DNA from: Mycobacterium sp. NBC_00419
GTDB taxonomy: Bacteria; Actinomycetota; Actinomycetes; Mycobacteriales; Mycobacteriaceae
Assembly: GCF_036023875.1 (NCBI RefSeq)
Contig: NZ_CP107931.1
Coordinates: 3,906,001 to 3,970,000, forward strand
DNA: 64,000 bases
Direction: 5' to 3'
Under the pieces are notes generated by a model. The model made no database searches. It was not told the origin of the DNA and saw only the letters and a program-made list of their open reading frames with translations. Of this stretch, positions 13,252-23,360 are shown one piece after another; the stretch's first letter is position 1; every line of letters starts with the position of its first letter. A program made the position numbers and the translations under genes.

Positions 13252-14910
<1,659 letters not shown>

Positions 14911-14926
14911 ATAGCACTGCCTCGAC

Positions 14927-14976
14927 TGTGGGGCTTATGTACGCGATCTCTTCGATTTGCGTACATAAGCCCCACA
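14927..14976. terminator. 18-bp perfect stem-loop downstream of groEL1
   Basis: TGTGGGGCTTATGTACGC (14927-14944) pairs perfectly with 14959-14976 across a 14-nt loop; beyond one mismatch three more base pairs are possible. No T-run follows. It sits between convergent genes (groEL1 and the ion channel gene) and is probably a bidirectional terminator. Confidence 0.7.
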
Positions 14977-14994
14977 CTCGTCTCTGGGGCCTCG

Positions 14995-15051
14995 CGAGTG
15001 TGCGGTTTCGTCCGCGACTCGCCGCCTGGCGCGTATGCCGATGCACACTCG
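14995..15051. repeat. Inverted-repeat element with 9-bp ends
   Basis: CGAGTGTGC (14995-15003) is matched by GCACACTCG (15043-15051) over a 39-nt interior. The left end can also pair with CACACTCG at 14973-14980, giving an alternative hairpin that competes with the terminator stem. The layout (GAGYGTGC...GCACRCTC, 55-57 bp) is like the element at 57306-57361. Confidence 0.5.
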
Positions 15052-15088
15052 GCACCCGGAATTTCCGACGCCGCCGTGCTCGCCGTCG

Positions 15089-16174
15089 CTAGTGGAAGAA
15101 CTGGGTAGCCGGGGGCGCGTTGTACACGTGAAGGAAGATCGTTAGCGCTACCAGCGCGGCATAGGTGCCGAGCGAGATCAGTCCGACCCGACGGTCGAGT
15201 GCGGCTGTCAGCGCTGGCGACATTTCTTGGTGGTTGCGTCGGCTGGCGAGGACCGAATAACCAGTCGCCGCCGCGATATAGATCATCGACAGGATGTAGA
15301 TCACGTCCAGCATCGTCAGGTACTCGACAGACGGCAGGTCGCCTTCTGTGCTCCACTGCAGGGCGATGATGGTCAGCAGTGCAGTGATGCCAATGCCGGC
15401 GCGCGCCTCTTCCAGGCGAGCGGGAAGCACGAAGATCAGCGCGGTGATCAGGACGACGATGAAGATCGGTATGAAGAGTTTCACTATGTACGGCAATGCA
15501 TTCCGCTTGACCGGAAGGTCGATCGTGATGCACGAGAAGGGCACGCCGTCAGGCGGAACTCTGCTGTCTCCGAAGTTGGTCTCGTATTGATGATCGATGA
15601 TGGACAGCGTCGGGGTGCCCAGCGAGTATCCGGGAATCGTGTCCAGCAGTGACCTGTTGATCGAGATCGGCCGCGTGTCGGGCACGAAGTTCAGTGTGCG
15701 GGTGTCCGCGCGTTGGTCTTTGAACACCACTCGCAGCACCTGCGTGTCGAAGGGGTAGTTCTGCAGCATGAGCTTTCTGCTGAACACCCCCTGGTACCTC
15801 ATGAGCATGTACTTGGAGCCATCAGGTTCCTCGACCGGTGCGTCATAGATCATCTGGGGCGCGACGCCTCCAGTGGACGAAGTTGTGGTGTTCTGAAAGC
15901 CGTTGGAGTTCATTACTTCAAGAGTGGCCGGCGGGTTGATGTTCGGATTCGTCCACCGCAACCAGAGGTAGACGTCCACGGTGAAACTCTCCGCGGCGAC
16001 ATCGATGTCCTGTAAGTCCTTGATGTAGGCGCCGACGAACACCCGATCTGCGCCGGCATCCGCGCTCGCCGGTGCAGGTCGCGTCAGAACGCCTGCCCAA
16101 CCCGCCGCCAGAGCCATCAGGACGATCACCAGAGCAGCAACGCCGCGATGGCTGTGGGTCACTCGAACGACCAC
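15089..16174 (-). CDS. Pentameric ligand-gated ion channel (Cys-loop superfamily) homologue
   Basis: 361 residues. A signal peptide (about 1-38, ending PASA-DA) is followed by an extracellular beta-sandwich (about 40-226) and four membrane helices: M1 about 228-250, M2 256-273, M3 284-308, M4 331-351. The canonical loop is NYPFDTQ (139-145), as in prokaryotic members, without the two loop cysteines. M2 reads EEARAGIGITALLTIIALQ: aligned on the conserved 9' Leu it has Glu at -2', Arg at 0', and the G-I-T-x-L-L core seen in nicotinic receptor M2, suggesting a cation pore. Known bacterial relatives are GLIC (proton-gated) and ELIC (amine-gated). The ligand here is unknown. The start is a GTG at 16174; other GTGs downstream are possible. 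It is monocistronic and divergent from a secreted M15-like protein. Confidence 0.88.
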   Translation of the reverse strand: MVVRVTHSHRGVAALVIVLMALAAGWAGVLTRPAPASADAGADRVFVGAYIKDLQDIDVAAESFTVDVYLWLRWTNPNINPPATLEVMNSNGFQNTTTSSTGGVAPQMIYDAPVEEPDGSKYMLMRYQGVFSRKLMLQNYPFDTQVLRVVFKDQRADTRTLNFVPDTRPISINRSLLDTIPGYSLGTPTLSIIDHQYETNFGDSRVPPDGVPFSCITIDLPVKRNALPYIVKLFIPIFIVVLITALIFVLPARLEEARAGIGITALLTIIALQWSTEGDLPSVEYLTMLDVIYILSMIYIAAATGYSVLASRRNHQEMSPALTAALDRRVGLISLGTYAALVALTIFLHVYNAPPATQFFH

Positions 16175-16300
16175 GCTTTTGCCGCCTGTCTTTCAGGGGC
16201 ACCCCGAGCGGATTCTTGCACGTCGGAGACCTCAGCCGTCGATGACGGGGCGCGTGTCGCGGTTCTGTGGCAATGGCGCCATCGCCGCCGACGAGAAAAG

Positions 16301-16306
16301 TAAGCT
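16301..16306 (+). promoter_or_regulatory. Leaderless -10 element of the M15-like gene
   Basis: TAAGCT is followed by 7 nt and the GTG at 16314. This favours a start that places the hydrophobic signal segment at the N-terminus, rather than the in-frame ATG at 16242. Confidence 0.5.
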
Positions 16307-16313
16307 GCTCGTC

Positions 16314-16970
16314 GTGGCGAAGGTGCTGGGCGGTAACGCAGGTCGCTGGTTGGCGGCCGGGCTGTCCGTCGTCGTCTCCGGCGCGATGTTCTATGCCCAA
16401 AGCCACGAGACCCCGCACCGTCCCGCCGCCCCGGCCGCATCGCCGACATCGACAGCGCTGCCCGCGCCGAACGTGACCACCCCTACCGAGGCCGAACTGC
16501 TGGCAGCCAGTGCACCGGTGGCCGACGCAGCGGGCTTCCAGTTCGCCCTGCCACCCGGCGACGTGGACGAGAAGAACATGCAGATCCACACCATCTGGGT
16601 GGCGCGCGCGATCAGCGTGATGTTCCTGGAGATCAACACCATGTACGGCTACCGGCAGGATCCGCTGAAATGGCATCCCAACGGGCTGGCCGTCGACGTG
16701 ATGATCCCGAACTACCACACCAAAGAGGGCATCGACCTGGGCAACCAGATCGCCGGCTATGCCCTGGCCAATGCCAAGCGCTGGGGAGTGCTGCACGTCA
16801 TCTGGCGGCAGGGCTTCTACCCGGGCATCGGCGCTCCGAGCTGGACAGCGGACTACGGCAACGAGACCGCCAACCACTACGACCATGTCCACATCGCCAC
16901 CGACGGCGGCGGATATCCGACCGGCCAGGAAACCTATTTCCTGGGCTCGATGCGGTTAGCTCCGGCCTGA
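16314..16970 (+). CDS. Secreted or anchored M15-like (VanY/ARB_07466-type) domain protein
   Basis: 218 residues from the leaderless GTG. A hydrophobic N-terminal segment (about 10-28) is followed by a Pro/Ala/Thr-rich linker (31-60) and a conserved domain. The domain has HPNGLAVD (H121, D128) and HYDHVH (H188, H191, H193), the spacing of the zinc site of M15/LAS D-Ala-D-Ala carboxypeptidases (HxxxxxxD...HxH). Close mycobacterial relatives are uncharacterised; a role in peptidoglycan trimming is plausible but inferred. It is divergent from the ion channel gene and followed by the DUF4349 lipoprotein gene. Confidence 0.7.
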   Translation: MAKVLGGNAGRWLAAGLSVVVSGAMFYAQSHETPHRPAAPAASPTSTALPAPNVTTPTEAELLAASAPVADAAGFQFALPPGDVDEKNMQIHTIWVARAISVMFLEINTMYGYRQDPLKWHPNGLAVDVMIPNYHTKEGIDLGNQIAGYALANAKRWGVLHVIWRQGFYPGIGAPSWTADYGNETANHYDHVHIATDGGGYPTGQETYFLGSMRLAPA

Positions 16971-22469: not shown

Positions 22470-23360
22470 GTGACTTCACACTGGTCGGCGAACCGACTCG
22501 GCAACCTCAGCGGCAAACGGATCATCGTGACCGGAGCGACCAACGGTGTCGGTCTGGGCACCGCTCGGGCTCTGGTGCGGGCGGGTGCCCAGGTGGTGAT
22601 GGCGGTCCGCAACGTCGAGCTGGGCGCCCAACGCGCCGCCGAGATCGGTGGTGACACCCAGGTCGTCAAACTCGACCTCGCCGACCAGGCGTCGGTGCGA
22701 GCCTTCCCCGACCTGTTGGACGGTGACGTCGACATCCTGATCAACAACGCCGGGATCGTCACCCAGGCGCGAAGCGAGACCGTCGACGGCTTCGAGAGCA
22801 TGCTCGGCACGAACTTCCTCGGTCCGTTCGCGTTGACCAATCTGCTCTTCGAACGGGTGCGGTCGCAGATCATCAACGTGGGATCCGACGGCCACAAGCA
22901 GGGCACCCTCGACTTCGCCGACCCGCACCTTCGGTCGAGCAAGTGGTCGTCATTCCCGGCCTATGCCCGCTCGAAGCTGGCGGTCATGCTGTGGGGACTC
23001 GAGCTCGACCGACGGCTGCGTGCCGCCGGGTCACCGGTCGTCAGCCATCTCACCCATCCGGGCTGGGTCGCATCCAATCTGACGAATCTGTCGGACAAGC
23101 GCGTGATGGCGGTGTTTCACTCCGTCGCGCAGTCGGCCGCCAACCGGCTGGGCAACGACATCGATGCCGGCGCCGCGACGACGCTGTACTGCATCGCCGA
23201 GCCGATTCCGCCGGGCAGTTACGTGGGTATCGACAGCAGGTTGGGGCTCAAGGGCGGACCGACTTTGAGCGGACGATCCGCTGTTGCCAGTGACTACGAC
23301 ATCGCCCGCCGGCTGTGGGCGTTCGCCGAAAAGGAGACCGGGACAACGCTTCCCGTGTGA
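22470..23360 (+). CDS. Short-chain dehydrogenase (retinol dehydrogenase-like)
   Basis: 296 residues: VTGATNGVGLGTARAL cofactor loop, NNAG in ILINNAGIV, the Ser in NVGSDGHK and YARSK as YxxxK. Length and the C-terminal insert fit the atypical SDR/retinol dehydrogenase-like group common in actinobacteria. GTG start, predicted leaderless. Divergent from the NTF2-sulfotransferase operon, so possibly in the same pathway. A clear terminator separates it from whiB3. Confidence 0.88.
   Translation: MTSHWSANRLGNLSGKRIIVTGATNGVGLGTARALVRAGAQVVMAVRNVELGAQRAAEIGGDTQVVKLDLADQASVRAFPDLLDGDVDILINNAGIVTQARSETVDGFESMLGTNFLGPFALTNLLFERVRSQIINVGSDGHKQGTLDFADPHLRSSKWSSFPAYARSKLAVMLWGLELDRRLRAAGSPVVSHLTHPGWVASNLTNLSDKRVMAVFHSVAQSAANRLGNDIDAGAATTLYCIAEPIPPGSYVGIDSRLGLKGGPTLSGRSAVASDYDIARRLWAFAEKETGTTLPV

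Follow-up and report, generated by a model that had tools for sequence, protein, structure and literature searches.

The 64,000-nucleotide stretch from Mycobacterium sp. NBC_00419 (contig NZ_CP107931.1, positions 3,906,001 to 3,970,000), called the window below, carries a gene whose product belongs to the pentameric ligand-gated ion channel (pLGIC) superfamily; its sequence, its predicted fold and its marker residues support this membership well. This superfamily is known, while a member from mycobacteria is apparently undescribed, and the pore of this one has an unusual mix of residues. With good probability, the protein is a Pro-loop receptor without the Cys-loop cysteines, which would form a homopentameric channel exposed to the periplasm, with a ligand or pH as its trigger, and pass cations more likely than anions.

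Bacterial pLGICs were reported in 2004 and are sporadic (PMC549065; PMC4795631), and the abstract of PMC4795631 describes them as sparse and non-essential among unicellular taxa. The main texts of these two papers, figures and supplements set apart, have no occurrence of “actinobact-” or “mycobact-”. We found no description of a mycobacterial pLGIC in an open-access library, a search that did not cover subscription journals and preprints; this agrees with the remark of the initial annotation that no mycobacterial member had been characterised, and is no proof of it. Bacterial pLGICs serve as structural models of neurotransmitter receptors and their role for the bacteria is unclear, so a single-copy gene on a one-contig mycobacterial chromosome provides a host for asking about this role. 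It also touches on a speculation, given in part of PMC7930380, that an ancestral bacterial receptor might lie behind the response of Mycobacterium tuberculosis growth to acetylcholine and nicotinic antagonists.

Superfamily membership and predicted fold

The open frame, which had been noted without a strand, was borne out on the minus strand, where it runs uninterrupted for 361 codons and fills its stretch exactly; the plus strand of the same stretch is interrupted by stops. The start codon is GTG, with a second in-frame GTG at codon 5, and the gene is single-copy in its genome (one 5.6-Mb contig). Searching solved pLGIC chains with phmmer gave a match of 9.2e-13. Both Pfam models, for the ligand-binding domain (Neur_chan_LBD) and the membrane part (Neur_chan_memb), matched the protein with 21.3 and 17.9 bits, under their gathering scores of 28.1 and 26 bits, and an NCBIfam profile also matched under its cut-off; such cut-offs are library thresholds rather than biological traits. 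The profile search proposed in the initial annotation therefore came out in between, with matches to both models below threshold. At E<=1e-3, the two Pfam models matched 18 and 11 of the 23 relatives in our alignment (A1, with subgroups I and II, see below), respectively. The NCBIfam family NF033918 gave no match in 14 control genomes, and at the same E-value it matched in one of six genomes, the window's own.

The marker residues of the superfamily are present as well: the Pro-loop tip [F/Y]PxD (Y140-P141-F142-D143) within the canonical YPFDTQ loop that had been named from the letters, an aromatic residue (W, F or Y) in beta9 (Y183, aligned to GLIC W160), the pre-M1 Arg, and the Pro residues of M1 (P236, GLIC P204) and of the M2-M3 loop (P281, GLIC P247). 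The single-chain model, with a predicted local distance difference test score (pLDDT) of 76.0, shows a beta-sandwich extracellular domain and four long membrane helices, and it has Foldseek and VIA structure matches to pLGICs. All four helices of the initial annotation are given by this model, while hydropathy alone picks out M1, M3 and M4 and misses M2, which is less hydrophobic. The hydrophobic N-terminus followed by Ala-Ser-Ala also fits the proposed signal peptide, which is a probable one on these two features.

The name “Cys-loop-type (pentameric) channel” stood for the superfamily, but “Cys-loop” is loose: an animal-type Cys-loop needs two loop-closing cysteines, and C215 is the only cysteine of the protein, so it has no Cys-loop disulphide. 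It does not pass as a nicotinic receptor either, having A257 at -1' instead of Glu and one cysteine in all, hence no vicinal loop-C pair; passages of PMC549065 describe this pair as a feature of a subset of animal cation channels. Nor does it pass as a glycine receptor (GlyR) or GABAA receptor, because Ala-Arg is present but Glu stands at -2' where Pro is expected. The features are collected in Table 1.

Table 1. Features of the pLGIC gene and its product in window coordinates (dN/dS, ratio of non-synonymous to synonymous substitution rates; row counts refer to A1)
Feature	Coordinates	Strand	Evidence
pLGIC gene, 361 aa	15089..16174	-	open frame; PDB, NCBIfam and Pfam matches; dN/dS 0.138
Probable signal peptide, residues 1-38	16061..16174	-	hydrophobic stretch 9-34 then Ala-Ser-Ala; fastest-changing part, dN/dS 0.289
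Extracellular (periplasmic) beta domain, residues 43-223	15506..16048	-	strands in model; alignment with GLIC/ELIC chains
Pro-loop YPFDTQ, residues 140-145	15740..15757	-	P141, F142, Q145 invariant in 23/23 rows; Asp143 in 14/14 subgroup I rows
Loop C region, residues 197-213, with Y197 and F213	15536..15586	-	Tyr 23/23; Phe/Tyr 23/23; aligned with ELIC Tyr and Phe
Pre-M1 Arg224 (GLIC R192)	15503..15505	-	14/14 subgroup I, 0/9 subgroup II rows
M1 helix, residues 227-248, kink P236	15431..15496	-	model; P236 23/23
M2 pore helix, residues 255-277: E256 (-2'), A257, R258 (0'), T264 (6'), L267 (9'), W274 (16'), E277 (19')	15344..15412	-	model, alignment
M3 helix, residues 284-315	15230..15325	-	model
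M4 helix, residues 320-351	15122..15217	-	model

Pore, trigger and proposed mechanism

M2 combines features of anion and cation channels in an unusual mix, so that selectivity rules can be put to a direct test. The motif noted initially was found again, with Glu256 at -2', Arg258 at 0' and G262-I-T-A-L-L267 up to the 9' Leu; its description as closer to nicotinic receptors than to GLIC did not hold. Over 23 positions (-2' to 20'), compared gap-free and aligned between the 0' and M2-M3 anchors, identities and BLOSUM62 sums were 8 and 37 for GlyR alpha1, 8 and 34 for GABAA alpha1, 6 and 22 for GLIC, and 5 and 18 for the alpha7 nicotinic acetylcholine receptor (nAChR). We rejected a nicotinic-like M2 on this four-way comparison, in which alpha7, the single nicotinic subunit compared, ranked last. 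When the membrane part was searched against the PDB, DeCLIC, glycine, GluCl and GABAA receptors came up, with no nicotinic receptor named among the best 60 of 252 matches. From -2' to 10', E-A-R-A-G-I-G-I-T-A-L-L-T of the window protein and P-A-R-V-G-L-G-I-T-T-V-L-T of GlyR alpha1 are identical at 8 of 13 positions, and Glu for Pro is the only charge change.

The pore positions are widely kept in the 23 rows: Glu/Asp at -2', Ala/Ser at -1', Leu/Ile at 9', Ala at 13' and Trp/Phe at 16' in every row, Arg/Lys at 0' and Thr at 6' in 22, and Glu/Asp at 19' in 11. GLIC, which conducts cations, has E at -2' (E222, matched by E256) and A at -1', and by this precedent the window channel would be of cation type. 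We regard cation selectivity as rather likely, because the acid at -2' is constant whereas positions -3' and 2' differ between the subgroups; a small remainder of probability falls to a non-selective pore. The other reading, an anion channel, has selectivity set by the GlyR-like M2 core and the Ala-Arg dyad instead of the acidic ring. In its favour, the rule given in Tasneem et al. (PMC549065) takes E-[RK] at -1'/0' as a cation motif and A-[RK] as an anion motif, which makes Ala(-1')-Arg(0') the classic anion dyad and would class the window channel as anion-type. GlyR and GABAA also have the top M2 scores, and anion receptors come right behind DeCLIC in the PDB search. However, none of the 23 relatives lacks the acidic -2' residue where GlyR and GABAA carry Pro, and the GLIC precedent combines the same Glu and Ala with cation flow, so we hold an anion channel to be unlikely. 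The “functional cation channel” of the initial annotation is thus plausible as to cations, given an acidic -2' as in GLIC, and unproven, given an Ala-Arg dyad that is an anion motif.

For the trigger, we lean towards a small-molecule ligand, because Y197 and the aromatic residue at 213 are kept in all 23 rows and have aligned counterparts in ELIC, a Tyr and a Phe, which presumably bind amines. Proton gating as in GLIC is a possible but doubtful alternative, in which periplasmic acidification would neutralise E62, E256 and E277 and open the cation pore without an organic agonist. Part of PMC5760087 lists eight GLIC positions that alter activation (E26, D32, E35, D122, E222, H235, E243 and H277) and names E35 as a key proton-sensing residue. 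Four of them are identical here (E35=E62, D122=D143, E222=E256, E243=E277) and a fifth is conservatively replaced (E26=D53), while D32, H235 and H277 are replaced by Val, Ile and Ser. The two GLIC histidines, looked for in the window protein, are absent, with I269 and S311 in their places; according to the same source, H235 is not the sole proton sensor in GLIC, so a channel that lacks just this residue could still be gated by protons. Given how common acidic residues are, a partial overlap is weak evidence, and Glu at the position of E35 is no clade-wide feature: 8 of the 23 relatives have it, while 12 have Asn and 3 have Asp.

For the Pro-loop receptor opened by ligand or pH, we infer the following mechanism. 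Five identical subunits would assemble in the cytoplasmic membrane, with the binding domains in the periplasm and M2 lining the pore. Either a small molecule bound at loop C, where two subunits meet, or altered pH at the interface of the domains would shift the Pro-loop together with the M2-M3 loop and open a hydrophobic gate at L267 (9'), perhaps also at W274 (16'). Ions would then run down their gradient, the acidic ring (E256 at -2', E277 at 19') making a cation current more likely, and, as in the mechanism of the superfamily, opening upon a periplasmic signal would alter membrane potential or ion content. Since mycobacteria are non-motile, a role in chemotaxis fits them poorly. Such a role was suggested for other bacterial members (PMC549065); sensing of envelope stress, pH or osmolytes are guesses.

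Relatives, selection and genomic surroundings

In genomes drawn from the same genus, the window protein matched 22 of 396 (11 of 361 of good quality). No match was obtained in the other 374 sampled genomes, among which M. tuberculosis is not named; the counts are lower bounds, because the searches cap the number of candidates scored in each genome. The 23 rows of A1 come from 20 of the 22 matching genomes, and three rows duplicate contigs from genome contig records; the other two genomes have one fragment (L024) and one distant match (L025). Fragments or sequences with an internal stop (L025, L041, L043, L049) were left out before tree building, two fragments (L024, L030) and the distant L029 were kept out of A1, L029 being included in the tree, and L001, L006, L007, L008 and L031 repeat proteins already in. 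With the A1 profile, matches were found in 7 of 397 genomes of the order, 6 of 396 of the phylum and 10 of 394 of the class, the window genome counted each time; those beyond the genus are weaker and lie on separate branches. A scan of contig records with a close relative as query gave three bins, titled Mycobacterium sp. isolate LacPavin, Actinomycetota and Bifidobacterium breve. The last (L003, CAMCWJ010000325.1) carries the same pLGIC as a genome of the window's genus (G111), and its title looks wrong.

The 23 rows group as a single clade in the tree (99/97), divided into subclades of 14 (99/98, subgroup I) and 9 rows (100/99, subgroup II), and the window protein groups with L005 and L002 (100/100). 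As the rows were drawn from genomes of Actinomycetota, from three plasmid records and from two solved structures, with GLIC and ELIC long-branched and their placing forks weak (59/53), the mycobacterial proteins belong together, by sequence, among the sampled rows, and closer ones may exist in other groups. A distant single-domain pLGIC type was also seen in one mycobacterial genome (L029, 1489-2487, minus strand) and on two Streptomyces plasmids (L098, L099), where it is annotated as hypothetical protein.

Subgroup II (L018-L023, L026-L028; A1 rows 15-23) is 29-33% identical to the window protein. All nine rows have Ser or Ala in place of the pre-M1 Arg, and eight lack the Pro-loop Asp (4 Glu, 4 Gln). 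In the superfamily as a whole, these two residues reach 94% and 93% conservation and are joined by a salt bridge; judged from the residues, this coupling bridge is lost here. The loss of both partners may be a single event, because the nine rows are one clade. One member, L026, is still modelled as a pLGIC (pLDDT 77.3, predicted TM-score (pTM) 0.56, best PDB match GLIC with 2.1e-20), from an alignment that also contained seven subgroup I rows. Tentatively, we picture a mycobacterial pLGIC clade with a natural hybrid pore, in which a GlyR-like M2 core and Ala-Arg dyad lie under a GLIC-like acidic -2' ring; in the envelope it would provide a conductance that a small amine-like molecule opens, and the sister subclade without the Asp/Arg pair would have to gate otherwise.

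Against L005 (83% identical), the window protein has a dN/dS of 0.138 at dS 0.71, which indicates purifying selection; by part, the ratio is 0.071 in M1-M3, 0.123 in the binding domain and 0.176 in the stretch with M4. It is 0.191 against L002, and three pairs among other relatives gave 0.20, 0.21 and, at dS 0.11, 0.39. Such low values would fit a working channel. A patchily spread, dispensable gene, intact yet functionless in this host, seems very improbable, though it would account for the presence in so few sampled genomes and for the other surroundings of the gene in its nearest relatives. The guanine-cytosine content at codon positions 1/3 also points that way (0.59/0.78 against 0.72-0.74/0.82-0.88 in two neighbours), which is partly expected for a membrane protein. 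Against it stand the dN/dS with its minimum in M1-M3, the intact frame and the retained gate and filter positions; dN/dS averages over both lineages and a recent loss in this host alone would escape it.

The pLGIC gene is convergent with a groEL gene (13291-14910, plus strand; GroEL by NCBIfam, labelled groEL1 by us). Upstream and divergent lie a 218-residue frame (16314-16970, plus strand, with a start of our choice) and then a DUF4349 gene. The 218-residue protein has no Pfam or NCBIfam family; as it matches four times in its own genome and has matches in 30 of the 41 genomes searched, it represents an unnamed family. Between the convergent stop codons there is a perfect 18-bp inverted repeat (14927-14944 and 14959-14976), unique in the genome, with an RNA fold z-score of -7.9, perhaps a terminator common to both genes; a terminator scan confined to short loops with a T run leaves it out. 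The promoter scan gave one site, within the pLGIC gene.

Around the gene, 26 window genes were compared with seven loci, and the pLGIC itself was the sole match in five (L052 and L053, the two closest relatives, and L055, L056, L057), so an operon partner was rejected. L054 has enoyl-CoA hydratase-like frames 32% identical to a window gene. In L058 (subgroup II), a short-chain dehydrogenase (2-874) that is 72.5% identical to the window frame 22470-23360 lies 7 kb from the pLGIC gene of that locus, in another relative orientation, a proximity that is probably chance. Among the matches listed, L004, L010, L011 and L056 have common flanking frames (about 77-86% identity), and L015, L016 and L055 have one (79-95%), so the gene stays in place within subgroups.

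The distance from groEL1 to the 218-residue frame is 1.4 kb here (14910-16314, with the pLGIC only), 5.5 kb in G024, where groEL1 and the 218-residue/DUF4349 pair keep the same order with other genes between, and 16.2, 18.3 and 25.4 kb in G018, G009 and G004. Among 14 loci around the 218-residue frame, none has groEL1 within 1.5 kb of it. The pLGIC gene therefore lies in a variable gap, in which insertion borders cannot be drawn, and an exact empty site was rejected. We noticed no mobile-element mark in the gap, and no search aimed at such marks was made. Phage cargo was rejected: 50,697 phage records gave no match, and in one scan 154 pattern matches in viral contigs included no relative by tblastn. 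Plasmid cargo was rejected too, as the matches were 10 records (8 Azospirillum, 2 Streptomyces) with <30% identity.

Comparison with known systems

The proton-gated GLIC of Gloeobacter violaceus is 19-20% identical to the window protein in VIA rows and differs by its H235, H277 and D32, and by the GlyR-like M2 core seen here. ELIC of Erwinia chrysanthemi has a profile match of 1.9e-24, and its loop-C Tyr and Phe and its 16' aromatic align, but its M1-M2 loop is gapped ahead of S-E-R, where the window protein has E-E-A-R. DeCLIC comes first in the PDB when the membrane part is the query (2e-9); it differs in extra N-terminal domains, none of which occur in the 361 residues here, and in an M2 N-terminus that aligns with gaps. 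Glycine and GABAA receptors share the M2 core, the A(-1')-R(0') dyad and the M2-M3 motif LPxVxY, while they carry Pro instead of Glu at -2', and the window protein has no Cys-loop cysteines and a short M3-M4 loop. Besides, PBP-I/pLGIC fusions of other Actinomycetota (L033, L044) have a pLGIC core that the A1 profile finds, but they lie on a separate tree branch with frames of >800 aa, in which Peripla_BP_6 precedes the core in the same frame (L033 1-2427, 6.4e-35; L044 1-2454, 4.7e-26). Fusions of this kind are described for alpha-proteobacteria in a passage of PMC549065.
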